A stretch of DNA of 34,693 bases from Lachnospiraceae bacterium (GTDB lineage Bacteria > Bacillota > Clostridia > Lachnospirales > Lachnospiraceae). The notes beneath the pieces were generated by a model, which was given only the letters and a program-made list of their open reading frames with translations, was not told the DNA's origin and did no database searches. The position numbers and the translations under genes are program-made. The stretch lies in contig JAFSCH010000014.1 in assembly GCA_017436865.1 (NCBI GenBank), forward strand, positions 1 to 34,693. Direction: 5' to 3'. Positions 1,806 to 13,306 of this stretch are shown piece by piece (position 1 is the first letter of the stretch; every line of letters begins with the position of its first letter).

Positions 1806-3071
1806 CTATTTTTCATGCTTTTGTATACTGCCATCAACAATCTTTTCCAACTCTACAAATGCCTTTTTCAGTCCAAAAGCCAGCGCTACCGTCAATACTG
1901 CCGCCGCAAAGAAAACAAGATAAATACAACTCCTCATTCCTTCAAATAAACCACCATAGATTGCCTGACCAATTGGGGAAGCACACATTCCAATACACAT
2001 AGCACAGGAAATAACCTTTCCGATTAAATCTGCCGGAACTATCATTTGCAAATATGCCATTAACTGAATAGAGAATAGATTTGCTAAGAACATCATCACA
2101 AAACAGCTAACCAAAATCACGATATATGCAACCATCGCAGGCATTGGTAACAAAAGAGCTATTCCTATCGGAATTAGCGTCAAAGCATCATAAAATAGTA
2201 ACATATATCCATTTCTGGTTCTCATTTTGCCCGCAAATACTCCTGCTCCCATTCCCCCGCAAAGAGAGCCTATCGCCATGACACCTTCCGCATATCCATA
2301 TAAACGGTTAGCTGCTTCGCTTTCAAATGCAAGCATTTGTGTTACGATAACCGGCAGACCAATTATAATAAGCGCACTTAATATCATGTTAATTGCAGCA
2401 ACCGCAAGTGATAGCTTTATAATCAACGGCTGCTCCTTACTTATGTAATGAAAGCTTTCCTTTAAATCTCCAAAGCCAATTGCAAAAATATTGCCCTGTG
2501 TCTGCTTTTTTTCAAAAGGAATATGAATAAATATCTCCATAATTGCTGATAGCAGGAAGCATACAGCACTTACATATAAAATCGGCATAATGCCATAAAA
2601 ACCAAATAATGCACCACCTATTACAGGACCAATCAAACCGGAAAAAGAGCTTATCAAGTTAATTACTGCATTTCCCTGCATAATGTGCTCTTCCGATAAT
2701 AATGCCGGAATGCTCGCCTGTACTGCCGGCTGATATGCTCCCTGAACACCGTACAATATAAACATTGCACCAAATAGCAATACTACCAAATTCATTTTTC
2801 CTAATAACAGCATAATCATAAGTACCAATATAGCCGTAGCAAAGTCAAGTACTACCATAATATTACGTTTGTTTACACGATCTGCAAAAATACCGCCAAT
2901 TGGACTTAATACTATCATCGGTATAAAAGAACAAGCACTTACCATTCCAAACAATGCCGCTGAACCGGTTTCATTCAGCAAATATAATGGCAATGCAAAC
3001 CTCAATATTGCATTGCCAAACAACGATATAATCTGTCCGATTACGACCATTAAAAAATTACGATTCCACAT
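1806..3071 (-). CDS. MFS transporter, probable drug/metabolite exporter
   Basis: 421 residues with about 12 hydrophobic segments, typical for a major facilitator exporter. The loop after helix 2 reads GGIFADRVNKRNIMV, the conserved MFS signature with acidic and basic residues. The overall pattern resembles the enterobactin-exporter/macrolide-efflux branch (MFS_3), but the substrate cannot be read from sequence. The start is supported by GGAGAGGG just upstream. The promoter 44-110 bp upstream carries a paired ACCACTTAT box identical in layout to the one before the LytTR regulator at 12132. The exporter is therefore a probable member of that regulon. Confidence 0.88.
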   Translation of the reverse strand: MWNRNFLMVVIGQIISLFGNAILRFALPLYLLNETGSAALFGMVSACSFIPMIVLSPIGGIFADRVNKRNIMVVLDFATAILVLMIMLLLGKMNLVVLLFGAMFILYGVQGAYQPAVQASIPALLSEEHIMQGNAVINLISSFSGLIGPVIGGALFGFYGIMPILYVSAVCFLLSAIMEIFIHIPFEKKQTQGNIFAIGFGDLKESFHYISKEQPLIIKLSLAVAAINMILSALIIIGLPVIVTQMLAFESEAANRLYGYAEGVMAIGSLCGGMGAGVFAGKMRTRNGYMLLFYDALTLIPIGIALLLPMPAMVAYIVILVSCFVMMFLANLFSIQLMAYLQMIVPADLIGKVISCAMCIGMCASPIGQAIYGGLFEGMRSCIYLVFFAAAVLTVALAFGLKKAFVELEKIVDGSIQKHEK

Positions 3072-3114
3072 GTTTTTCCCTCTCCTCTTATATACTCTTC
3101 TTGAATCGTTTTTC

Positions 3115-3183
3115 AGTATATATGAGAGTTTTTTCTTTTTCTATAGCTAAAAGATAAGTGGTCGATATCCTCCGATAAGTGGT
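3115..3183 (-). promoter_or_regulatory. LytTR-type promoter of the MFS gene
   Basis: On the minus strand two identical ACCACTTAT boxes lie at 3175-3183 and 3154-3162, 21 bp apart (two helix turns). Ten bases later comes a poor -35 TAGAAA (3138-3143), then a 17-bp spacer and -10 TATACT (3115-3120). A weak -35 plus an upstream paired box is the usual layout of an activated promoter. Spacing is the same as at 8675-8743 and 12021-12089. Confidence 0.75.
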
Positions 3184-3253
3184 AATAGAACGGAAGTAAC
3201 CTGCATATGTTTCATTGTTTTTTCACGATAAAAACCACTTAAAGTCAATACGC

Positions 3254-4405
3254 CTAAAATCTTATGTTCAAATATCCATCTTCGTACTTAGCTCCCTTTA
3301 TCTCCTCTTTCAAAAATGCTTGTGGTATGAAAAAACGACGAACTTCGTTTTTTATTCCAATCACCAACTCGTCCTCTGTCTGTTTGAGAGACAATTCTGC
3401 TTTCTCGGCAAATGGTAAATAGATTCGTAATGTTTTCTCTTTACTATCCATTTTATATATTTCTTCTTGGAACAAAACATCGTTTGGATTGCTTTCACCA
3501 TACATAGTCTCTCCAACCTCTTTTAATACGGAAATACCACACAGTTCCTTATCCAGTAGCTCCACATAAAAACAAGGTATTTCATGAAAACTCTCTTTGA
3601 TATCACAAAGTGATTTTTCCTGCATTTCCATCCACTTATTAAAATATCCCTCCATTGCACGATTTGGATAAATACGATTTACGATAATCGCATCCACATT
3701 ATAATTATAAAGATATAAGCAACTTACATTACGCTTTGCTTCCTTTAATACAATTTGCTCAGGTGTCGTGACAACTCTTAAACTTACAATTTCTTTATTC
3801 AACATGAGATTCTGAAGCTTTTCCAGCTTTTCCATTAAATATTCAATGTCATCAAACACTTCTTCTCCAGGCATAGGCATTTTCATTGTCTTTTCTACTG
3901 CCGGTCCCACTAATTTTACTCCCTTTTTCTTAATTGGCAGAACCTTTTGTATCAAGTTCGAAAACTTTTCCGGATATTTTAACAAAGCCAATGTCTCCCC
4001 TGTTGGTGCACAATCTACAATCAAAGTGTCATAGTACCCTTCTTCATAGATTTCCAGAATCTTAAACATGGAGAACAACTCTTCCAATCCCGGAAAAACC
4101 AGCAGCTCCTCCATTTCTATTCCTTCCTCGCCTTTCATGGATAAGAGTTTCTTAAAATACTCTTTTAAATTTCCCCAGCATTTTTCACTTTCATATACTG
4201 TGTCAATCTCCAACCCATCCAGATTATCTGCAATTTTCACCGGCACCTTGCCAAGCTCTGTTTCATAGGAATCCCCCAGACTATGCGCCTGATCCGTACT
4301 CATAATCAAAACCTTTTTTCCTTCCTCTGCAATTCTACATGCCGTTGCAGCCGCCATGCTTGTTTTCCCTACTCCACCTTTTCCTGTATATATAATAATT
4401 CTCAT
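3254..4405 (-). CDS. ArsA/GET3-family ATPase, second copy, with HSP20-like C-terminus
   Basis: 383 residues. Seen: deviant Walker A GKGGVGKT at 8-15, switch I STDQAHSLGD at 36-45 and switch II DCAPTGET at 131-138, all diagnostic of the ArsA/GET3 branch of P-loop ATPases. The last ~60 residues (from TLRIYLPFAEKAEL) look like the small alpha-crystallin-type domain often appended to bacterial ArsA proteins. There is one ATPase unit, not two as in arsenite-pump ArsA, and no GET3 CxxC pair. It is the last gene of a three-gene operon with a paralogue at 4666 and a small helical protein. No arsB, arsD or arsR is present, so arsenic export is unlikely. Handling of a hydrophobic protein or another oxyanion is possible but unproven. 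Confidence 0.85.
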   Translation of the reverse strand: MRIIIYTGKGGVGKTSMAAATACRIAEEGKKVLIMSTDQAHSLGDSYETELGKVPVKIADNLDGLEIDTVYESEKCWGNLKEYFKKLLSMKGEEGIEMEELLVFPGLEELFSMFKILEIYEEGYYDTLIVDCAPTGETLALLKYPEKFSNLIQKVLPIKKKGVKLVGPAVEKTMKMPMPGEEVFDDIEYLMEKLEKLQNLMLNKEIVSLRVVTTPEQIVLKEAKRNVSCLYLYNYNVDAIIVNRIYPNRAMEGYFNKWMEMQEKSLCDIKESFHEIPCFYVELLDKELCGISVLKEVGETMYGESNPNDVLFQEEIYKMDSKEKTLRIYLPFAEKAELSLKQTEDELVIGIKNEVRRFFIPQAFLKEEIKGAKYEDGYLNIRF

Positions 4406-4460
4406 AATTATTCAGTCCCTTCATAATTACTATGCAAAAATCCATTACAGTTACTAATTC

Positions 4461-4673
4461 TCATTCTATATCAACCTTCTTTGTCTTTTTATTTTCCTCT
4501 GTTGTTTCCTTATATTCCTTTCCAATTTCCATTGCAAGCTCCACAAGCATTGCTTTTACTTCTCTCTCTATCACATCCAAATGTCCACTCATCTCTTCCG
4601 GAAATAGTGCCTTGATTGCTTTTCTCTGATAGTCTCCTGCCACCTTTAATCGTCTTACCATCTCACTACTCAT
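4461..4673 (-). CDS. small charged helical protein between two ArsA ATPases
   Basis: 70 residues, MSSEMVRRLKVAGDYQRKAI at the start, rich in K, E and R, predicted mostly helical, with no signal peptide or membrane segment. I do not recognise a named family. The ATG at 4673 is preferred over an upstream TTG because AAGGAGAGG sits 9 bases before it. The start overlaps the end of the upstream ArsA gene by 8 bp, so translation is probably coupled. Its position between two ArsA paralogues suggests a partner or adaptor of those ATPases. Confidence 0.7.
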   Translation of the reverse strand: MSSEMVRRLKVAGDYQRKAIKALFPEEMSGHLDVIEREVKAMLVELAMEIGKEYKETTEENKKTKKVDIE

Positions 4674-5844
4674 CCGTTTCCTCTCCTTTTTCAAACTGTA
4701 TGCGCAATACTCCTTCTTCCAGCTTTGCAGATGTAATTAAATAGTTCCTAAGAATATTCGGAAGTGGAATATTACGCTTAAAATTCTTTAGCTTTATTAC
4801 GATATCCGTCCTTGACTGATATAAGTCCATTTCTTTTTTATTTGCTCCCGGAAGCGCTACATCCAACAAATATCCTTTTTCATTTTTTGTAAATACTTCT
4901 CTTTCATGAATGGTTTTTATTTCAAAAATATCAGATTCCTTTAACACCTCTTTTGCCATTCTATTTATCGCCATCTGTCCTTTTAACTCCTCTTCATACC
5001 AAGGAATCGTATAAATAGGCAACATTCCAAAGCTTTCATAAAGCTGATTGATATATTTTTCTTGTATCTGTAACCACTGACTAAAAAACGGATTATTAAT
5101 ATCTCTTGGCAAAACACGATTAATATACAATCCATCTACATTATAGTTATAAAGATTCATATACAAATAATTTCGCTTCGTTTCTTCTACTACCATCTTT
5201 TCAGGAGTTGTAACAATTCGAATACTTGTTGTATCCCTGTCTTTGAACAATTCCTGAAGCTCTTGTAGCTTTATATATAGTCTTTCTATATCATTCATTG
5301 CCCTTTTGTTAGGTAACTCAATACGGAAAGCAGCTTTTGATATTGGTGATAACAATCTAATTGCAAGCTTTCCAATTGGAAACAATTTCTCCATATACCA
5401 GGAAAGCAACTCCGGAAACTTCAATAAGGACAAGGTTTCTCCTGTTGGAGCACAATCAACAATGATTCTGTCATATATACCCTCTTTTTGCATTTCGGAA
5501 ATTTTTAACAAAGAAAACAATTCTTCCATTCCGGGAGCTAACCCTATATCACTCCAATCATTGCTTTGCACCTCGGATAACATATTGGAGACACAGCTTG
5601 CAATATCTTGAAAATCATGTTCCATGACATACTCCGGGTCAATCTCATAAATATCCAGATTCTCCATTACTTTTAACGGTTCTTTCTCTGGATTAACTTC
5701 AAAAATATCTCCCAAGTTATGTGCCATATCTGTACTTACTAATATCGTTCTCTCACCTTCTAAAGCACTCTTTATGGCATGTGCTGCAGCTATGCTGCTT
5801 TTTCCAACACCGCCCTTACCTGTAAAAATATAAATTTTGCTCAT
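4666..5844 (-). CDS. ArsA/GET3-family ATPase, first copy, with HSP20-like C-terminus
   Basis: 392 residues, clearly paralogous to the 3254-4405 protein. Seen: GKGGVGKS at 9-16, STDMAHNLGD at 37-46, DCAPTGET at 130-137, and a C-terminal beta-rich stretch (about 310-388) resembling the ArsA HSP20-like domain. The ribosome site AAAGGAG precedes the ATG. It is the first gene of the leftward operon ArsA-small protein-ArsA. A pair of single-unit ArsA proteins could form a heterodimer, since this family works as a dimer around the shared ATP sites; that is inference. The promoter carries the palindrome also found at the neighbouring MarR gene, so MarR control is likely. Confidence 0.86.
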   Translation of the reverse strand: MSKIYIFTGKGGVGKSSIAAAHAIKSALEGERTILVSTDMAHNLGDIFEVNPEKEPLKVMENLDIYEIDPEYVMEHDFQDIASCVSNMLSEVQSNDWSDIGLAPGMEELFSLLKISEMQKEGIYDRIIVDCAPTGETLSLLKFPELLSWYMEKLFPIGKLAIRLLSPISKAAFRIELPNKRAMNDIERLYIKLQELQELFKDRDTTSIRIVTTPEKMVVEETKRNYLYMNLYNYNVDGLYINRVLPRDINNPFFSQWLQIQEKYINQLYESFGMLPIYTIPWYEEELKGQMAINRMAKEVLKESDIFEIKTIHEREVFTKNEKGYLLDVALPGANKKEMDLYQSRTDIVIKLKNFKRNIPLPNILRNYLITSAKLEEGVLRIQFEKGEETDE

Positions 5845-5911
5845 TTCTCTACTCCTTTCGCAATTTCGGCATTTCCTTTTCTATACCGTCATTCTTTCAT
5901 AGCATTGTATG

Positions 5912-5951
5912 ATTATATTTATTTCCTTTTTTGAATATTTCGAGTATCGAA
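5912..5951 (-). promoter_or_regulatory. ArsA operon promoter with MarR-type palindrome
   Basis: On the minus strand -10 TATAAT lies at 5912-5917 with no good -35. The palindrome TTCGAGTATCGAA (5939-5951; arms TTCGA/TCGAA) falls at the -35 position. The marR promoter holds TTCGGGTATAGAA (minus strand, 6560-6572), identical at 11 of 13 bases, which points to one shared regulator. Confidence 0.6.
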
Positions 5952-5968
5952 GTATTTTGTTTTGATAT

Positions 5969-5999
5969 AGGCAGTTTTGATTTTCATCATAAACTGCCT
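5969..5999. repeat. inverted repeat downstream of marR
   Basis: AGGCAGTTT and AAACTGCCT form a 9-bp perfect stem with a 13-base loop, 22 bp after the marR stop. Neither side has a clear T-run, so it may be a weak terminator or mRNA-end stabiliser for marR. Confidence 0.5.
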
Positions 6000-6021
6000 G
6001 TTATTCTTCCATTATTAAAAC

Positions 6022-6510
6022 CTATTCAATTGTAATCTTTCGAATAGTACTTTTCTTCTCTTCTCTTTTATGTCCCTGTTTTAACACTTCCACCACTCTC
6101 TTAGACATTTTAAAGAAAAGCTCCATCTCTCCCTTAGAGAAAACGGAAATCGTTTGCATTGCATAATAGGTAATTTCATCCACCAATGCCTTTACCTGTG
6201 CATTTCCTTTTTCCGTAAGCCTAATAACTACTACTCGTTTATCCTCTTTCAGCCTTTCTCTTGTAATAAACTCATTTTTTTCCAGCTTTCCCACAATTCC
6301 CGTTGCAGTATTTAGCGGAACATGAATATATTCCGCAATTTCTGTCATATTTGCTTCTGTCTTACGATATAAAAGCCAGAAAATTAATATTTCATTCTTA
6401 GAACAATTTAATAAAATATTATTCCAGATGTCAGGTGACAGTAATTCTTTTATCTCTTCAATGAACTGAAATGCATCCTCCTGCAATCTCAACTCATCCT
6501 GCTTATTCAT
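6022..6510 (-). CDS. MarR-family transcriptional regulator
   Basis: 162 residues with a winged helix-turn-helix: MTEIAEYIHVPLNTATGIV is the recognition region and ITRERLKEDKRVVVIRLTEKG is the wing with the conserved D-R pair. The start at 6510 has GGAGGGG 6 to 8 bases upstream. A farther ATG at 6543 would sit about 9 bases after the predicted transcription start and is rejected. The promoter overlaps the palindrome TTCGGGTATAGAA, a close match to one at the downstream ArsA operon. It probably represses itself and that operon and responds to a small ligand or oxidant. No Cys consistent with OhrR-type sensing stands out in the N-terminal part. Confidence 0.88.
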   Translation of the reverse strand: MNKQDELRLQEDAFQFIEEIKELLSPDIWNNILLNCSKNEILIFWLLYRKTEANMTEIAEYIHVPLNTATGIVGKLEKNEFITRERLKEDKRVVVIRLTEKGNAQVKALVDEITYYAMQTISVFSKGEMELFFKMSKRVVEVLKQGHKREEKKSTIRKITIE

Positions 6511-6558
6511 CAACATCCCCTCCATCCTTCTTATTACTTCCATGTTCGAAGTAATTTG

Positions 6559-6587
6559 ATTCTATACCCGAACTATTTGTTTGTCAA
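6559..6587 (-). promoter_or_regulatory. marR promoter with overlapping palindromic operator
   Basis: Minus strand: -35 TTGACA (6582-6587), 17-bp spacer, -10 TAGAAT (6559-6564). The operator TTCGGGTATAGAA (6560-6572) covers the -10, a layout fit for autorepression. Confidence 0.72.
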
Positions 6588-6603
6588 GAAAATATTCATC
6601 CAC

Positions 6604-7254
6604 TTATAACACAAACATCACCAGCACAATCGGAAATGTCTTTCGAATATCACGATTTGCCAACAAATATACACTTCCGAATGCAAAACCGGAAATCATA
6701 CAAAGAATTCCTGTCACGATATCTTTAGTAAAGAAATGACCGATTCCCCATGTCAATGCTAAGATAATACCACCATATGGAATATTTTCTTTGTGAAACC
6801 ACTTCTCAAATGCCTTTTGCGCAAAAACAAGAATCAAAGTAACTAAAATAGTTTCAAATATGTAGTAAATATATTGGAAAATAAACTTTAACCAACCATT
6901 ATATACAAACTCCTTAATTACCTTAAAGCCATTCCAGTCTTGGTAAGAGATAATCAGACTTAGCCCAATAACTACAACGATACAAAACCATTGCCAGAGC
7001 TTGAGCGGCTCGCCCTTTTTGAACATATCAAAATCATACTTTTTCTTAGCATTCTGCACCAGAAAATATGCTACAACTCCCCATGAAGCACTTGTGATTG
7101 TCCAATGGACAATATTTTGCCATGTATTCCATTCCCCCAGCTGAGCACCGTATAAGATTGGCTCTAACAAAAATGCATAGATAACCTCCAATCCAATACC
7201 TGCAAAAGCAAGCAATGCCAATACTAAAAAGTCTAATCCTGTTGCTTTTTTCAT
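6604..7254 (-). CDS. multi-pass membrane protein, degenerate CPBP-like
   Basis: 216 residues with about six hydrophobic segments. The end (GIILALTWGIGHFFTKDIVTG) resembles the second conserved block of CPBP/Abi intramembrane proteases, including a His. The EExxxR motif of the first block is not present, so catalysis is doubtful; it is either an inactive relative or another small membrane family. RBS GGGGAG lies 8 bases before the ATG. It is the third gene of the leftward operon with two flavodoxin-like proteins (33-bp gap), and so falls under the LytTR-type promoter at 8675-8743. Confidence 0.65.
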   Translation of the reverse strand: MKKATGLDFLVLALLAFAGIGLEVIYAFLLEPILYGAQLGEWNTWQNIVHWTITSASWGVVAYFLVQNAKKKYDFDMFKKGEPLKLWQWFCIVVVIGLSLIISYQDWNGFKVIKEFVYNGWLKFIFQYIYYIFETILVTLILVFAQKAFEKWFHKENIPYGGIILALTWGIGHFFTKDIVTGILCMISGFAFGSVYLLANRDIRKTFPIVLVMFVL

Positions 7255-7287
7255 TCCTATGTTCTCCCCTATCTTTTATTTGTTCTA

Positions 7288-7947
7288 TTATATATGTCCA
7301 TACGGTCTAACATCCAGTTTTTGTTTGCAACCTAAGGATTTTGCTATTTTATTCATAAATATTCTCTGTATATGTCTGCCAATAAGGTGAAATCCTCGCA
7401 AAACGCCTTTTGGGAAGAACTCCGGTCCTGCAAATTGATTTACTTCTTCTTTGTTAAAGCTATGAGTCTTTGCAAATCTCTTTCCCATTTCTTCAAATGG
7501 CTGTAATGCTTTTACTCTTTGCTTATCATCTACCAAACTAAGTCCAAACATATCTCCTTTGAGCAACGTTCCCGCATATTCACAACCAAGCATAGCAGGT
7601 AACGTTTCCAGATATGTTTCGCAGCAACGTAACTGAGAGGCTTCCGGAAAACCACCCTGCAATAAAAATGCTATTTTCGTTCCTGCTTCCTTTTTCTTTT
7701 CTATTGTTTCCAGAAATTCCAACATACTTCCCGGTATATTTTCCACATATAACGGTAACGCAAAAAGGATATTATCATTCTTATAAAATGCTGCTCTTGC
7801 CATTTCCCATTGTGAACGATCCGCAAGATACCATACCTCTGTTGTATGCCCTTTTGATTCATATCCCTTACGAAAAGCCTCTATAATCTTTGCCGTATTA
7901 CTTTGATTTTTTGCTCTTGTTGCTCCACTGATTATCACTAAAAGCAT
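7288..7947 (-). CDS. flavodoxin-like NAD(P)H-dependent oxidoreductase
   Basis: 219 residues beginning MLLVIISGATRAKNQSNTA, a beta strand followed by the phosphate-binding loop of FMN flavodoxin-fold reductases. A second conserved patch ILFALPLYVENIPGSMLEFLE matches the region facing the flavin ring. The C-terminal extension is basic and has no clear signature. The ATG lies one base after the stop of the upstream flavoprotein gene; the weak site AGGAAAGG precedes it, so the two are probably translated together. The substrate is unknown; quinones, nitro compounds or an electron partner of the companion flavoprotein are options. Confidence 0.8.
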   Translation of the reverse strand: MLLVIISGATRAKNQSNTAKIIEAFRKGYESKGHTTEVWYLADRSQWEMARAAFYKNDNILFALPLYVENIPGSMLEFLETIEKKKEAGTKIAFLLQGGFPEASQLRCCETYLETLPAMLGCEYAGTLLKGDMFGLSLVDDKQRVKALQPFEEMGKRFAKTHSFNKEEVNQFAGPEFFPKGVLRGFHLIGRHIQRIFMNKIAKSLGCKQKLDVRPYGHI

Positions 7948-7948
7948 A

Positions 7949-8455
7949 TTAATACCCTTGCCTTTCCTGTATCTGTTCCATCGTAAATGCACCAATACTT
8001 GTTCCATGCATATTAATTGCTACACGTTCCATCCAATGTGACAAATAATCTTGATCCGCCATACCTTTATATATCAAACCAAAGGTATTCTTCTTATCAT
8101 AGCGTGGTACATGTCGCATCTGTCCATCTACTACACAAATATACATCGTTGCTAGAGGCAATATACGATCAATCACATTTTTCATCGGATAACGTACAAA
8201 TCCTAACGATGTTTCTGCCAAGAAAAGAACTATATCATATTGTAAATATGCCTTTAATATCTCCTCATAATCATCCTTAATCGCACAGATTCCCGGAGTT
8301 TTTAACCAACAGGCATTACATCCGATACAAGGATTAATTTTCATATTCTCTGTATGAATCACCTTATAATCTTGCTTATCCTTTATCAGTTGTTGAATAC
8401 AATTTTGCGCAGATTCATCATCCTCTGACATTGTATTTATAATTAGTAAACTCAT
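7949..8455 (-). CDS. flavodoxin-fold FMN reductase with CxxCxxC motif
   Basis: 168 residues of the NADPH-dependent FMN reductase/iron-sulfur flavoprotein-like family. Seen: N-terminal strand SLLIINTMS, then PCIGCNACW with Cys at 43, 46, 49 and another at 57, the usual Cys-rich loop of this family, followed by DDYEEILKAYLQYDIVLFLA and the substrate-loop PMKNVIDRILP. The start at 8455 is chosen because AGAAAGAGG lies 8 bases upstream; an ATG two codons earlier is too close to that site. First gene of a three-gene operon with a paired LytTR-type box about 260 bp upstream and a structured leader. Confidence 0.83.
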   Translation of the reverse strand: MSLLIINTMSEDDESAQNCIQQLIKDKQDYKVIHTENMKINPCIGCNACWLKTPGICAIKDDYEEILKAYLQYDIVLFLAETSLGFVRYPMKNVIDRILPLATMYICVVDGQMRHVPRYDKKNTFGLIYKGMADQDYLSHWMERVAINMHGTSIGAFTMEQIQERQGY

Positions 8456-8542
8456 CTGCATAACCTCTTTCTCTTCTAAATAAGATTCTTACCGTCTCAG
8501 TCGCACTTGCTTCGACTTTCCCTAAACAATTGTAATTTTATA

Positions 8543-8674
8543 GTAACTGTTCAGCAGGCATACGCATTTACTGCGTATGCCGTAAGAAGACGTAGATTTG
8601 GAAAGTCAAAATCCCATTGCGAAGCAATTTTAGATGGATTTTGACACGTAACTATGAAGGTACTGAATAGTTAC
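8543..8674. repeat. 132-bp palindromic, multi-hairpin element
   Basis: The ends are near-perfect inverted copies, GTAACTGTTCAG (8543-8554) and CTGAATAGTTAC (8663-8674), with one mismatch. Inside are a 9-bp stem GCATACGCA/TGCGTATGC with a 5-base loop (8558-8580) and a 10-bp stem GTCAAAATCC/GGATTTTGAC, enclosing ATTGC-ttc-GCAAT (about 8604-8645). There is no coding capacity. It looks like a small dispersed repeat (MITE-like) or a structured leader RNA. It ends one base before the -10 box of the flavodoxin operon, so nearly the whole element would be transcribed. Confidence 0.75.
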
Positions 8675-8743
8675 ATTTTATATTAATAAAGAACATCTTT
8701 CTATATCTAGAAAGTAAGTGGTACGAATTATCGGTTAAGTGGT
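8675..8743 (-). promoter_or_regulatory. LytTR-type promoter of the flavodoxin operon
   Basis: Minus strand: boxes ACCACTTAA (8735-8743) and ACCACTTAC (8714-8722), 21 bp apart, then 10 bp, -35 TAGAAA (8698-8703), 17 bp, -10 TAAAAT (8675-8680). The 16 bases from the box to the end of the -35 match the MFS promoter at 13 of 16 positions. The stretch 8456-8794 has no gene; it holds this promoter and the 132-bp element. Confidence 0.72.
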
Positions 8744-8794
8744 TCATATTTCGCTGCAATATACATCAGCTTAATCTGATTCTCAATATGTGGG

Positions 8795-9442
8795 CTATAT
8801 CATTTCAGATATTTTTTCCACGCATTCCTCTATAAATGACATGATAATCTCTTTAGAACAATAACAATACCCATTTATATCTTGACTTTCTATGTCCTTA
8901 TACTGTTCTGTCAAAATATGCTTTTTCTGCCGTTCTATATCGTCTTTCTCAATACAACCTGTTATAGAATGTGCTTTGCTTTGTGACAGCAATTCCATGA
9001 TTTTTTCGGTATTACTACTGTTCTGATACAGCCATTGGTCACTGCCAATTGCCTCCTTTTGATACATGTGATAAATCTCTTCTACCTTATCACCTTTTAT
9101 ATTCGCATTCCGAAACGGACTCCATATCCTAATGTCATTTAACCAATCCGTTAAAATATGTACACAATACCCAGCTATGAAATCTTTATTATCATCTTTT
9201 TTATGTTCTCCCCAAAAAGCCAGCACATTTTTCTCCCACTTCTCTGACTCCAGCGTAATTCCCCATTTCGGGCCACAATTCCATAAATGGCTCTGCTCTT
9301 TTAAACACACTTCATATTTATCATGAAAATGAACTGCATCTGGAGCAATTGCTCCTAACAAAAAATCTTCACGCTTTACAATCCAAGTAAATTTTTCTAA
9401 TAATCTATATGCTATTTCTAAGTGAATCATTTGATATGCCAT
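8795..9442 (-). CDS. zinc-dependent phospholipase C-like protein
   Basis: 215 residues. Family-typical zinc-binding positions are visible: His7, then GAIAPDAVHFH (Asp35, His38, His40) and GYCVHILTDW (His95, Asp99). These fit the Zn_dep_PLPC (PF00882) family. No signal peptide is seen, unlike secreted alpha-toxin-type enzymes, so it is probably a cytosolic hydrolase of unknown substrate. RBS GAGGAGG precedes the ATG. It stands alone; its stop is about 50 bp from the LytTR-type boxes of the next operon. Confidence 0.8.
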   Translation of the reverse strand: MAYQMIHLEIAYRLLEKFTWIVKREDFLLGAIAPDAVHFHDKYEVCLKEQSHLWNCGPKWGITLESEKWEKNVLAFWGEHKKDDNKDFIAGYCVHILTDWLNDIRIWSPFRNANIKGDKVEEIYHMYQKEAIGSDQWLYQNSSNTEKIMELLSQSKAHSITGCIEKDDIERQKKHILTEQYKDIESQDINGYCYCSKEIIMSFIEECVEKISEMI

Positions 9443-9520
9443 AATTATCCTCCTCTAATTTTATGCATATTTTCCCAACTTCTACACACCCTATCCATGA
9501 AAGGAAGGTGTACTACAGAA

Positions 9521-9688
9521 ATGGATAATAATACCAATATGAATAACAAAATTATAATTACACCAAACGATCAGCAACCTGCAGATGACTACGATGATGG
9601 CAATATCCCACAGGTAGACTTGCCGCAAGAGGTCATTCCTGATGAGGTACCACGCAAAGATGGTCCTGGTGGAGATGGCAAAATGTAA
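9521..9688 (+). CDS. small acidic, Pro/Asp-rich protein
   Basis: 55 residues, starting MDNNTNMNNKIIITPNDQQP and ending GPGGDGKM. It is rich in D, N, P and lacks hydrophobic or Cys segments, so it is likely disordered. The chosen ATG has AAAGGAAGG about 12 bases upstream; a second ATG six codons on is possible. A strong terminator follows the gene, which supports a real short transcript. I do not recognise the family. Confidence 0.55.
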   Translation: MDNNTNMNNKIIITPNDQQPADDYDDGNIPQVDLPQEVIPDEVPRKDGPGGDGKM

Positions 9689-9714
9689 AAATACATTTCA
9701 TGACCCCCTATAAG

Positions 9715-9750
9715 AAATCCCGTCCATCACTATAATAGACGGGATTTTCT
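9715..9750 (+). terminator. Rho-independent terminator
   Basis: AAATCCCGTC (9715-9724) pairs with GACGGGATTT (9738-9747) and is followed by TTCT. It ends the small acidic-protein transcript. Confidence 0.85.
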
Positions 9751-9828
9751 CATTTTACAACAATATTAGTCTTTTTCTCTAGTGCATGGTCAATCCCCAT
9801 TTTATAAATTTATTGTTATTTTATTGTA

Positions 9829-9856
9829 TTGCATATACAAATTGTGGTATTATATT
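9829..9856 (+). promoter_or_regulatory. likely promoter of the EIIC-EAL gene
   Basis: TTGCAT (9829-9834), 16-bp spacer and TATATT (9851-9856) lie in AT-rich DNA about 50 bp before the ATG. Confidence 0.5.
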
Positions 9857-9907
9857 AATAGTAATTTTATACTTTGGTTTCTAAATAAATTTGATTGGAG
9901 AATTGTA

Positions 9908-11986
9908 ATGCCTTCTAAAGAAAAAATTAAACAAATTACATTTAAAATAGAAAATAACATTTTTTTAACCATTATTCGTAATGGCTTAACTATGATGATT
10001 CCGCTTGTTCTCATAGGTGGTATTGCGTGTGCTTTGATTAACCTTCCATTTATTAATTATGACTCCCTTTCTCCGTTTTTTAAACAACTACATATTATTC
10101 TTGATGCCATCTATCAAGGAACTTTCGGACTTTTCTCTCTTGCATTGGTCATTGCTCTTAGTTTGTGCTATGGCATGGAAAATAATGAAACAACTGATAA
10201 AGTAGGTTTATATATTATTGTTGCTTTAGGTTCCTATAGTTCCCAGCTACATATTGCAAGTGAACATTTTAATTTTGAAGCATTAGGTGCGAAAGGTAGC
10301 TTTTCTGCAATATTCATTACTATGTTTTCTTGCTTTTGCTATGATAAAATCAAACGAATAACTATTTTTTCACTAAAAAAATACTCCTTAGGAATGAATG
10401 TCATCTGCACCAATGCAATTAATACCCTCATACCTATGGCATTGGTTATTTGCCTTGTTGTTAAGTTGACTCAGTTACTATATTTTCTCACAGGTGTAAG
10501 AAATTTAAATGAATTGTTTACTAATACATCCTGTAATTTATTTGCAAATATTGATAATAACTTCAGCTCAGGCCTGTTATATACTTTTTTATTACATCTC
10601 TTATGGATATGCGGTTTCCACGGAAGCCATGTATTAGAGCCTGTTGCTCAGGGCATGTTTTCTGTTGTTACTGAAAATATCATTTTTAGCAAAAGCTTTT
10701 TTGATACTTATGTTGTAATGGGTGGTTGCGGAACTACCATTTGTGTGCTTTTAGTACTTTTATTCTTTTTTAGAAAGGATCGCATGAGTAATTATGCCAA
10801 ACTGGCATCCCCTACCGTTATTTTTAACTTAAATGAGGTACTCAATTTTGGAATACCAATTGTGCTAAATCCCATATTAGCCATACCTTTTATTCTGACA
10901 CCTATTGTTATATATACGTTAGCATATTGGGTAACGTATATTGGTTTGGTTCCTCCAATTATCCATGAAGTTGCATGGTCTACCCCATTTATTTTAAGTG
11001 GATATCTTGGAACTGGGTCCATACGTGGCTCGTTGCTTCAAATCGTTTGTATCATGATTGGAATGGCTATTTATTATCCATTCATTCAGATGCATAAACA
11101 GGTTCAGGAAACCATTGCCAAAGAAAAGCTTAATATCATTATTAACGATCTTCAAAATGATGAATTAATGAATGAAGTTCCTCAATTTTTAACTAGAGCA
11201 GATAGTCAAGGACAAATTTTCCGCATGTTATTAGAAGATTTAAAAACTTCTATTAAAGAGGATAAACTATTCCTATTGTATCAACCACAAATGGACGATA
11301 CTGGAAAATGTCTAGGTGCAGAGGCGTTACTTCGTTGGATTCATCCTCTGTATGGGTTTATTTATCCTCCACTTATTATTCATCTTGCAAAAGAAGGTGG
11401 TATCCTGCAACAGTTAGAAGAATATATCTTTGATATAGCAGGTCGCGCCATAAAAAAGACTTCTGAAGAATATGATGGTGACTTTAAAATCTCTATTAAT
11501 ATTACCGGCAAATCTCTTTTGTGGGATATCGAAACATGTATTGATTCCTGTTTGCGTAAATATGATATACCAGCAGAATATATGTGGCTTGAAATTACAG
11601 AACAGGATGTTATCTCAAACGCTGATTTCGTTACGGAAAAACTGAAACGTTTGAACAACTTAGGACATACCTTATTAATTGATGATTTTGGAATGGGACA
11701 TACTTCTCTCATCTATTTACAATCGAATTACTTTGGAGTTGTAAAACTGGATGGCTCCTTAGTGAAAAATATAATAGAAAATGAAACCAATCAAAAAATA
11801 ATCTCTTCTATTGTAGAATTAGGAAAAGAACTGAACATCAAAGTTATTGCCGAGTATGTAGAAACAACAGAACAAAGAGATTTGTTACAGGCTCTTGGCT
11901 GTCACTGGTATCAGGGATATCTGTATAGCAAACCGATTCCTTTAGACGATTTCATCCAATGTATGAAAGAACATAATCAATTTTAG
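9908..11986 (+). CDS. PTS EIIC-like membrane domain fused to EAL c-di-GMP phosphodiesterase
   Basis: 692 residues. Residues 1 to about 400 form a multi-span membrane domain resembling the EIIC part of cellobiose-type sugar phosphotransferase permeases (HGSHVLEPVAQG and LNFGIPIVLNP regions). After a short helix, about 440-690 is a complete EAL domain: AEALLRW, SINITGKSL, ITEQD, DDFGMGHTSL, KLDGSLVKN, VIAEYVET. The acidic metal ligands and catalytic residues are all present, so it should cleave c-di-GMP. No EIIA, EIIB or HPr sites are seen, so the EIIC part is more likely a sensor than a transporter. The start has TTGGAG 9 bases upstream; an earlier in-frame ATG at 9782 lies before the probable promoter. 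Confidence 0.88.
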   Translation: MPSKEKIKQITFKIENNIFLTIIRNGLTMMIPLVLIGGIACALINLPFINYDSLSPFFKQLHIILDAIYQGTFGLFSLALVIALSLCYGMENNETTDKVGLYIIVALGSYSSQLHIASEHFNFEALGAKGSFSAIFITMFSCFCYDKIKRITIFSLKKYSLGMNVICTNAINTLIPMALVICLVVKLTQLLYFLTGVRNLNELFTNTSCNLFANIDNNFSSGLLYTFLLHLLWICGFHGSHVLEPVAQGMFSVVTENIIFSKSFFDTYVVMGGCGTTICVLLVLLFFFRKDRMSNYAKLASPTVIFNLNEVLNFGIPIVLNPILAIPFILTPIVIYTLAYWVTYIGLVPPIIHEVAWSTPFILSGYLGTGSIRGSLLQIVCIMIGMAIYYPFIQMHKQVQETIAKEKLNIIINDLQNDELMNEVPQFLTRADSQGQIFRMLLEDLKTSIKEDKLFLLYQPQMDDTGKCLGAEALLRWIHPLYGFIYPPLIIHLAKEGGILQQLEEYIFDIAGRAIKKTSEEYDGDFKISINITGKSLLWDIETCIDSCLRKYDIPAEYMWLEITEQDVISNADFVTEKLKRLNNLGHTLLIDDFGMGHTSLIYLQSNYFGVVKLDGSLVKNIIENETNQKIISSIVELGKELNIKVIAEYVETTEQRDLLQALGCHWYQGYLYSKPIPLDDFIQCMKEHNQF

Positions 11987-11990
11987 TAAT

Positions 11991-12020
11991 GGGCGCCATA
12001 AAAAATGGCGCTCTTTTTTT
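11991..12020 (+). terminator. Rho-independent terminator after the EIIC-EAL gene
   Basis: GGCGCCAT (11992-11999) pairs with ATGGCGCT (12005-12012, one G-T pair), followed by seven T. The LytTR box starts directly after the T-run. Confidence 0.9.
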
Positions 12021-12089
12021 ACCACTTACCAGTCAAAAATAACCACTTACTTATTTTTTATTTACAGTACTCCTTTTATCTCCTATGAT
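12021..12089 (+). promoter_or_regulatory. autoregulatory LytTR promoter
   Basis: Two identical ACCACTTAC boxes (12021-12029, 12042-12050), 21 bp apart, then 10 bp, -35 TTTACA (12061-12066), 17 bp, -10 TATGAT (12084-12089). LytTR proteins are known to bind two 9-bp direct repeats about 21 bp apart. The gene right after encodes such a protein. Confidence 0.8.
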
Positions 12090-12131
12090 AGGATTGTAAC
12101 AAGAACAACATTCAAAGGAGATTCAAACCGG

Positions 12132-12590
12132 ATGAAAATAAAAATAGAGGTCGATGAAACCGCCTTGGAAAGCGAGGTCGTAATCCGGTGTGCAGGACTG
12201 ACAAAAGAAGTACAATTGATTCAGCAGGCACTTTCGGAAATTGCTGCCGGAAACCAACGGTTTATCTTTTACAAAGGGGAAACGGAATATTATATCGAAC
12301 TAAACGAGATACTTTTCTTCGAAACAGACGATGGCATCATCAATGTCCATACTGCTAAAGATGTCTATCATACAAAACTTAAGCTCTACGAACTCGAGGA
12401 ACGTTTACCAGGTTATTTTATGCGAGTATCCAAATCAGCCATACTAAATGTCGATAAAATATACTCCATGACCCGAAATTTATCTACTTGTCTTGTGGAA
12501 TTTACCAAAAGCCATAAACAGGTATATGTTTCAAGATATTACTTTAAACCTTTAAAAGAAAAAATAGAAGAAATGAGGATGAGACGATGA
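12132..12590 (+). CDS. stand-alone LytTR DNA-binding regulator
   Basis: 152 residues. The N-terminal ~45 residues are a short beta/alpha lead without a receiver domain. Residues about 47-150 form a LytTR domain: YYIELNEILFFETDDGIINVHT, then YELEERLPGYFMRVSKSAILNVDKI and the final beta strand. The RBS AAAGGAG lies 11 bases before the ATG. It overlaps the next gene by 4 bp (ATGA). Single LytTR proteins paired with a membrane protein form the LytTR regulatory systems, in which the membrane partner holds the regulator in check. Paired boxes before this gene, the MFS gene and the flavodoxin operon define its likely regulon. Confidence 0.9.
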   Translation: MKIKIEVDETALESEVVIRCAGLTKEVQLIQQALSEIAAGNQRFIFYKGETEYYIELNEILFFETDDGIINVHTAKDVYHTKLKLYELEERLPGYFMRVSKSAILNVDKIYSMTRNLSTCLVEFTKSHKQVYVSRYYFKPLKEKIEEMRMRR

Positions 12591-13306
12591 AAAAAGAAAG
12601 AATTTTATGGGGTGTACTTTTTATTTTAGGAGCTATATGTTTACTTTTTTCCCATACTGATTTTATGCAAGGACTGCAAATCAATGTATGGAATTTACTT
12701 TGGACCATTATTTTACTTGCAATTCTTATAAAAAGTATTGTACGACTTAATTATTTTGGTATCTTTTTCCCACTTGCTTTTCTATGTGTGATTTATAAAG
12801 AACCTCTTGGAATTACTCAAATTGCTCCGTTTACTTTATTCGGTGCCGCTATTCTGTTAAGCATTGGTTGCAATATGTTATTTCCCAAGAAGAAATATCA
12901 TGGTTGCTGTAATGATAAACATTTCCATTCCGGAGAACATGTTTCCTTTGATGAAGTCATTGATATGGACACCAACGAATACATAAGACAAGAAGTAAAC
13001 TTTGGTTCCTGTGTAAAATATATAAATTCCGATAACTTCAAAGGCGGACGTTTTGAATGTAGCTTTGGTGCAATGAAACTCTACTTTACCAATACCATTA
13101 TGCAGGACTCACAGGCAACAGTTACAATCGAAAATAGTTTTGGCGGCACAGAAATCTATGTACCAAAGAATTGGATTGTTATAAATCAGATTCACAGTGT
13201 ATTTGGCGGTGTTGATGAAAAAGGGGTATCTCAGCCAGACGGCATACATACCCTATATCTGACAGGCGAATGTAACTTCGGTGGTATCGATATTATCTAT
13301 ATCTAA
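12587..13306 (+). CDS. LiaF-like membrane protein, LytTR partner
   Basis: 239 residues. Four hydrophobic segments in residues 1-105 are followed by a soluble beta-rich C-terminal part (FGSCVKYINSDNFKGGRFEC, then repeated FGG.. units). This resembles the cell-wall-active antibiotics response domain of LiaF. It starts in the stop codon of the LytTR gene (ATGA), so the pair is co-translated. In LytTR regulatory systems the membrane partner is usually an inhibitor, and LiaF itself inhibits an envelope-stress regulator. An envelope-sensing inhibitor role is therefore a reasonable inference. Confidence 0.82.
   Translation: MKKERILWGVLFILGAICLLFSHTDFMQGLQINVWNLLWTIILLAILIKSIVRLNYFGIFFPLAFLCVIYKEPLGITQIAPFTLFGAAILLSIGCNMLFPKKKYHGCCNDKHFHSGEHVSFDEVIDMDTNEYIRQEVNFGSCVKYINSDNFKGGRFECSFGAMKLYFTNTIMQDSQATVTIENSFGGTEIYVPKNWIVINQIHSVFGGVDEKGVSQPDGIHTLYLTGECNFGGIDIIYI

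Follow-up and report, generated by a model that had tools for sequence, protein, structure and literature searches.

Three promoters in a Lachnospiraceae genome carry the same paired repeat, one of them ahead of a LytTR regulator gene, which raises the question of whether they form a local regulon of this regulator and whether such a system has already been described. The window, i.e., the whole stretch of DNA that was analysed, is an entire contig (C137) of 34,693 bases from a 4.2-Mb genome (4,204,847 bases) listed with 7.68% contamination. The window contains 8 copies of the motif ACCACTTA where 1.13 would be expected, and none of 100 shuffles reached 8. Six of these eight copies build three exact ACCACTTA-N13-ACCACTTA pairs (double boxes), while the single copies at 3234 and 13850 correspond to the chance level (1.13 expected). 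The double boxes, with the promoters and genes around them, are as follows.

1806-3071, reverse strand: MFS exporter, 421 aa (Pfam MFS_1, 101.3 bits)
3115-3143, reverse strand: −35 TAGAAA and −10 TATACT of the MFS promoter, 17-bp spacer, 11 bp after the box
3155-3183, reverse strand: double box of the MFS promoter, exact
7288-8007, reverse strand: FMN_red-like protein P0004, 239 aa (Pfam FMN_red, 26 bits; cut-off 24)
7949-8461, reverse strand: flavodoxin/NAD(P)H oxidoreductase-like protein P0003, 170 aa, a weak assignment (FMN_red below cut-off, E 0.15)
8543-8674, no strand assigned: MITE-like repeat element of 132 bp that separates the flavoprotein gene from its promoter, with the direct duplication ATTTTATA on both flanks (8535-8542 and 8675-8682)
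8675-8703, reverse strand: −35 TAGAAA and −10 TAAAAT of the flavoprotein promoter, 17-bp spacer, the −10 lying within the duplication 8675-8682
8715-8743, reverse strand: double box of the flavoprotein promoter, exact
11991-12013, forward strand: intrinsic-terminator-like hairpin, its T-run abutting box 1 of the LytTR promoter
12021-12049, forward strand: double box of the LytTR-LiaF promoter, exact, one of three in the genome and conserved in relatives
12061-12089, forward strand: −35 TTTACA and −10 TATGAT of the LytTR-LiaF promoter, 17-bp spacer, 11 bp after the box
12132-12590, forward strand: LytTR regulator without receiver domain, 152 aa (Pfam LytTR, 74.5 bits, residues 53-145, the sole family found)
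12587-13306, forward strand: LiaF-like membrane protein and putative inhibitor, 239 aa (Pfam LiaF-TM, 50.6 bits; LiaF-like_C, 29.4 bits, cut-off 29)

Over the whole genome, the exact double box was found in these three places only, all of them within 10 kb of the LytTR gene, and the reversed pattern used as a control had no exact match anywhere in this genome. When up to three mismatches were allowed within the window, four pairs were found (three of them exact) against 0.26 expected. At up to two mismatches over the whole genome, the pattern and its reversed control occurred in 6 places each, and we therefore gave weight to the exact sites alone; loose matches were rejected as evidence, since the reversed controls equal or exceed them (6 vs 6 here, and 45 for the control vs 36 in the genus scan described below). 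In 250 genomes of the family, the exact pattern was present in 7 places, including the three of this window, compared to 3 for the reversed control. The exact box of G219 (L009) is near a contig end and has no assigned gene, and a near-match with one mismatch at G000:C152 (L004) has no LytTR gene among the ORFs around it.

All three promoters share one geometry, in which the end of the box is followed by 11 bp, the −35 hexamer, 17 bp and the −10 hexamer. Note that the hexamers are consensus matches, and that the promoter scan as a whole gave no excess (36 promoters vs a shuffle mean of 48.9). The initial annotation had pointed to the three double boxes, to a common 10-bp gap and 17-bp spacer and to a poor −35 TAGAAA at both target promoters, and all of this was borne out: the boxes are exact and confined to these places, and its 10 bp, counted from a 9-bp box, are the 11 bp given here. 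The identical 11-bp gap and the weak −35 at the two targets would favour activation over repression.

The arrangement of the regulator gene and its neighbour corresponds to a known kind of system. According to PMC6193735, the operon of a LytTR Regulatory System (LRS) encodes a LytTR regulator together with its membrane inhibitor, has repeats just upstream of the −35 and is positively autoregulated; LRS include HdrRM and BrsRM of Streptococcus mutans as well as systems in other species, and binding of HdrR to its own promoter was shown by EMSA. The same source, from 2018, describes LRS as widespread, with characterised examples from S. mutans only, the targets of which are bacteriocin and competence genes, and reports ABC transporter genes linked to some LRS. 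In our window, a soluble LytTR regulator without receiver domain (Pfam LytTR alone) is followed directly, in the same operon, by a membrane protein with LiaF-TM and LiaF-like_C domains, the two genes overlapping by four bases, and the paired direct repeats lie just upstream of the operon's −35, 11 bp before TTTACA. The LytTR promoter of the window and two LRS promoters given in PMC6193735 read as follows in the published notation, and they correspond to one another in the repeat, the gap, the TTTACA and the spacer of 17 bp.

Window: ACCACTTAC-12-ACCACTTAC-10-TTTACA-17-TATGAT
Clostridium botulinum: ACCACTTAC-12-ACCACTTAT-10-TTTACA-17-TATAAT
Roseburia intestinalis: ACCACTTAC-13-ACCACTTG-11-TTTACA-17-TATAAT

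The LiaF-like protein shares a DUF2154/LiaF C-terminal domain with HdrM, as DUF2154, which PMC6193735 gives for HdrM, is the C-terminal domain of LiaF according to PMC11237479. The latter also describes PSP-linked operons in which LytTR accompanies a fusion of LiaI-LiaF-TM to Toastrack, and the membrane partner in our window likewise has LiaF-TM and LiaF-like_C. By analogy with LRS, this protein may act as the inhibitor of the regulator. Compared to the LiaFSR envelope-stress system, a neighbouring LytTR stands in place of LiaS and LiaR, and no kinase or receiver domain was found by Pfam and/or NCBIfam in the 11 window proteins up to position 13306. LytTR response regulators of the AgrA/ComE type also combine a LytTR domain with paired direct repeats adjoining the −35, whereas the regulator described here has no receiver domain and no paired kinase. 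A PDB search with the LytTR protein gave no match at E 0.01, and the genome holds 13 LytTR matches in total. Just upstream of the operon, positions 9782-11986 encode a PTS IIC-like membrane part joined to an EAL-type phosphodiesterase part (NCBIfam matches).

The system is thus a LytTR Regulatory System, i.e., of a known kind, with a species-specific output and new candidate targets, namely the MFS exporter and the flavoprotein operon. Compared to the LRS of S. mutans, the window adds two exact boxes, ahead of the MFS exporter and of the flavoprotein operon, and the titles and abstract openings of the literature on LytTR systems did not name such targets. The initial annotation had not recognised a described system in this locus, which was mistaken in view of LRS (PMC6193735) and of the operons joining LytTR to LiaF-TM/Toastrack (PMC11237479); the reading as an undescribed system was rejected on the LRS match.

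Conservation of the autoregulatory box was followed over the family. Counting the present genome, 58 of the 397 family genomes have an ortholog of the LytTR regulator (E ≤ 1e-22), as do 53 of the 334 genera; within the genus, 18 of 38 genomes have one at E < 1e-30. We inspected 47 promoters, namely that of the window, those of the other 17 genus orthologs and those of 29 of the 57 further family genomes, the count leaving out L011 (the window's species) and L122 (the same genome as L059). At least 12 of the 16 box letters were matched in 39 of the 47, a score reached by 1.3% of mononucleotide shuffles, and TTTACA (at least 5 of 6 letters) lies exactly 11 bp past the box in 40 of the 47, compared to 0.7% at random positions; the box scored below 12 in 8 promoters, including that of G266. 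A LiaF-like match on the strand of the LytTR gene accompanies all 49 ortholog rows, at distances from −6 to +142. In addition, the exact consensus ACCWCTTA-N13-ACCWCTTR was found in 21 places in 21 of the 57 LRS family genomes (reversed control, 9), and 20 of these places lie, by coordinates, ahead of the LytTR gene. At the remaining one (G149, L060), an exact ACCACTTA double box with the 11-bp gap has a GHKL kinase/LytTR response-regulator pair on one side and, downstream, a gene of glycosyl hydrolase family 2. In G227 (L061), too, such an exact ACCACTTA double box with its 11-bp gap separates a kinase/LytTR response-regulator pair from a downstream gene. In both genomes a different LytTR branch has the same box. 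The box alone is no proof of which LytTR binds it, since it adjoins kinase/LytTR pairs in these two genomes and the window's own genome has 13 LytTR matches.

Within the genus, a scan with at most one mismatch gave 36 places in 20 of the 38 genomes and 45 for the reversed control; as the control exceeds the pattern, the total carries no weight and the location of the places counts instead. Nine of the 36 stayed without an assignment, and 27 were assigned to a target: 13 LytTR promoters, 10 copies of one orthologous ABC exporter gene, one other ABC exporter (G266), the MFS and flavoprotein promoters of the window, and one place in G262, where the box precedes a gene that resembles, by eye, the G149 glycosyl hydrolase. 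Of the 23 places without mismatch, 10 precede LytTR, 9 the ABC exporter, and one each another ABC exporter, the MFS gene and the flavoprotein operon (22 in all); the last one, in G267:C169, is among the unassigned places. The ABC exporter ortholog (E ≤ 1e-60) is present in 10 of the 38 genus genomes, and all 10 genes are boxed. It occurs in 10 of the 18 genomes with a LytTR ortholog vs none of the 20 others (Fisher p 9e-5, ignoring relatedness), with different neighbour genes among the five loci listed and with matches in two pieces in G267. The exporter being boxed in all 10 carriers, all of which have the LytTR, export looks like a usual output of the LytTR switch. In the window's genome, no match to this ABC exporter was obtained among the 42 candidates scored out of 116 from a first look.

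The two other boxes of the window are different in this respect. The MFS protein resembles named drug exporters of NCBIfam but scores below their cut-offs, and its box is not conserved among the relatives examined, save for one degenerate case: an 80%-identical ortholog (L106, G265) has a box pair matching 12 of 16 letters with a possible promoter N11-TTGATG-N17-TACACT, together with a better-looking −35 TTTACA that is 22 bp away. The other nine MFS homologs examined (L107-L115) score just 8-11 of 16, and one of them (L107, G270) has, by eye, a TetR-like gene and a palindrome ahead of the MFS gene. A short reading frame at 9522-9688 of the window is 82% identical at the DNA level to a stretch of G265 (L106 1547-1686), where it adjoins the MFS gene.

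For the flavoprotein operon, homologs of both genes were found in L091 only among the homolog loci examined, and six of the seven flavoprotein homologs examined score 8-11 of 16 for the box, the upstream sequence of L099 being too short. The initial annotation's two-flavoprotein operon stands for P0004, just above the FMN_red cut-off, and much less so for P0003, which is far below it; in PDB searches, P0003 had one weak match (E 0.0049) and P0004 none at 0.1. The genes that follow downstream on the same strand encode a membrane protein that matches no Pfam family above cut-off, a regulator of the MarR type and two ArsA/GET3-type ATPases. The latter (3254-4405 and 4666-5844) have HSP20-like ends, and the window proteins scanned include no arsenite-pump gene. 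The 132-bp repeat has 43 matches in the genome, itself included, many of which end at the same borders, and its 8-bp target-site duplication contains the flavoprotein −10 in the copy at 8675-8682. The flavoprotein promoter is probably older than the insertion, its −10 having been kept through the duplication. The nearest named relative found, a Lachnospiraceae MAG from goat cecum (L011), is 98.7% identical over the common part and was the sole locus in the contig search with the LiaF-like protein; its contig runs to window position 6589, continues with ~135 other bases and resumes at 9342, and neither flavoprotein matches anything in it. L011 also keeps a diverged fragment of the membrane-protein gene that neighbours the flavoprotein stretch.

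A further element was found at the promoters of relatives. In 23 of the 25 genus promoters scored (L043-L055, L062, L068, L077-L079, L082-L084, L088 and L167), a potential hairpin with T's at its end spans the region that starts immediately ahead of box 2, contains the −35 and reaches the −10; this hairpin is absent from L042, L070 and the three window promoters. The outer stem pairs in 216 of 231 cells over 21 distinct rows, and covariation is seen at three variable pairs (paired in 54 of 63 cells, with none of 5000 shuffles as high). In an alignment of 18 chosen promoters, which left out near-duplicates, L088, L070 and L042 (the later scoring covered all 25 rows and the three window promoters), 92.2% of hairpin cells pair vs 40–50% when slid; of 500 shuffles of these 18 rows, 149 reached the observed count of pairs that change on both sides and 406 that of further pair types, but none reached the count of such cells or the score for covariation. 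Each of the 13 LytTR loci that have the dyad is preceded, at a short distance, by the end of a codirectional gene; Pfam identifies this gene as MatE at both loci tested. The simplest reading of this hairpin would be a terminator overlapping the promoter; the window has instead the terminator-like hairpin whose T-run abuts box 1 of its LytTR promoter.

Our results suggest, with a probability of about 0.75, that the locus is an LRS whose LytTR activates its own operon, the MFS exporter and the flavoprotein operon through the three boxes. The co-transcribed LiaF-like membrane protein would hold the soluble LytTR inactive until an envelope or membrane cue lifts this inhibition, and the freed LytTR would then bind the box pairs, which end 11 bp before the −35, thereby activating its own operon in a positive feedback as well as the MFS exporter and flavoprotein promoters. 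That this LytTR binds and activates, that the LiaF-like protein inhibits it, and what the cue and the substrate would be are inferred. The observations behind this reading are three exact boxes of identical geometry that occur nowhere else in the genome, an autoregulatory box conserved over the family and the boxed ABC exporter of sister species. It appears rather unlikely that the LytTR-LiaF promoter is the sole live target, the MFS and flavoprotein boxes being recent copies or remnants and the flavoprotein promoter being altered by the repeat insertion. Such a restricted role would be consistent with a conserved autoregulatory box and non-conserved target boxes, with the autoregulatory position of 20 of the 21 stringent family sites and with the insertion of the repeat at the flavoprotein −10; however, the three boxes are letter-perfect with the 11/17 geometry intact, the flavoprotein −10 was retained by duplication, and a boxed exporter is present as a second target in sister species.

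We consider it very unlikely that another regulator of the LytTR family, e.g., a two-component response regulator, binds the boxes in place of this LytTR or alongside it. The genome does have 13 LytTR matches, and in G149 a kinase/LytTR response-regulator pair adjoins the exact box; however, across the family the box goes with this ortholog group, and all three exact sites are close to this LytTR gene (≤10 kb). That the pairs are functionless chance repeats has a negligible probability: the two single copies fit chance, but the excess of pairs, the lack of any exact reversed-control match in the genome and the conservation of the box in relatives do not, and a chance origin was rejected on window counts, pair counts, genome scan and reversed control.

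Altogether, the activation of the three promoters by this LytTR would agree with much of the initial annotation, which had proposed a local autoregulated LytTR regulon and had taken boxes in relatives as its check. The regulon is well supported by the box before LytTR orthologs across the family and before the ABC exporter in the genus, while conservation does not extend to the window's two targets, with the one degenerate case at the MFS gene (L106) and none at the flavoprotein homologs. More tentatively, the locus could be a LytTR-LiaF switch with an exchangeable exporter output (ABC in many species of the genus, MFS and flavin enzymes here), and the covarying hairpin over box 2 and the −35 in sister species could possibly be a terminator within a self-activating promoter, shielding it from read-through. 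The promoter pattern ACCWCTTA-N13-ACCACTTR-N11-TTTACA-N17-TATGAT provides concrete, testable targets in gut Lachnospiraceae, and our findings suggest that export and detoxification are under the control of this LRS branch and that one exporter takes the place of another from species to species.
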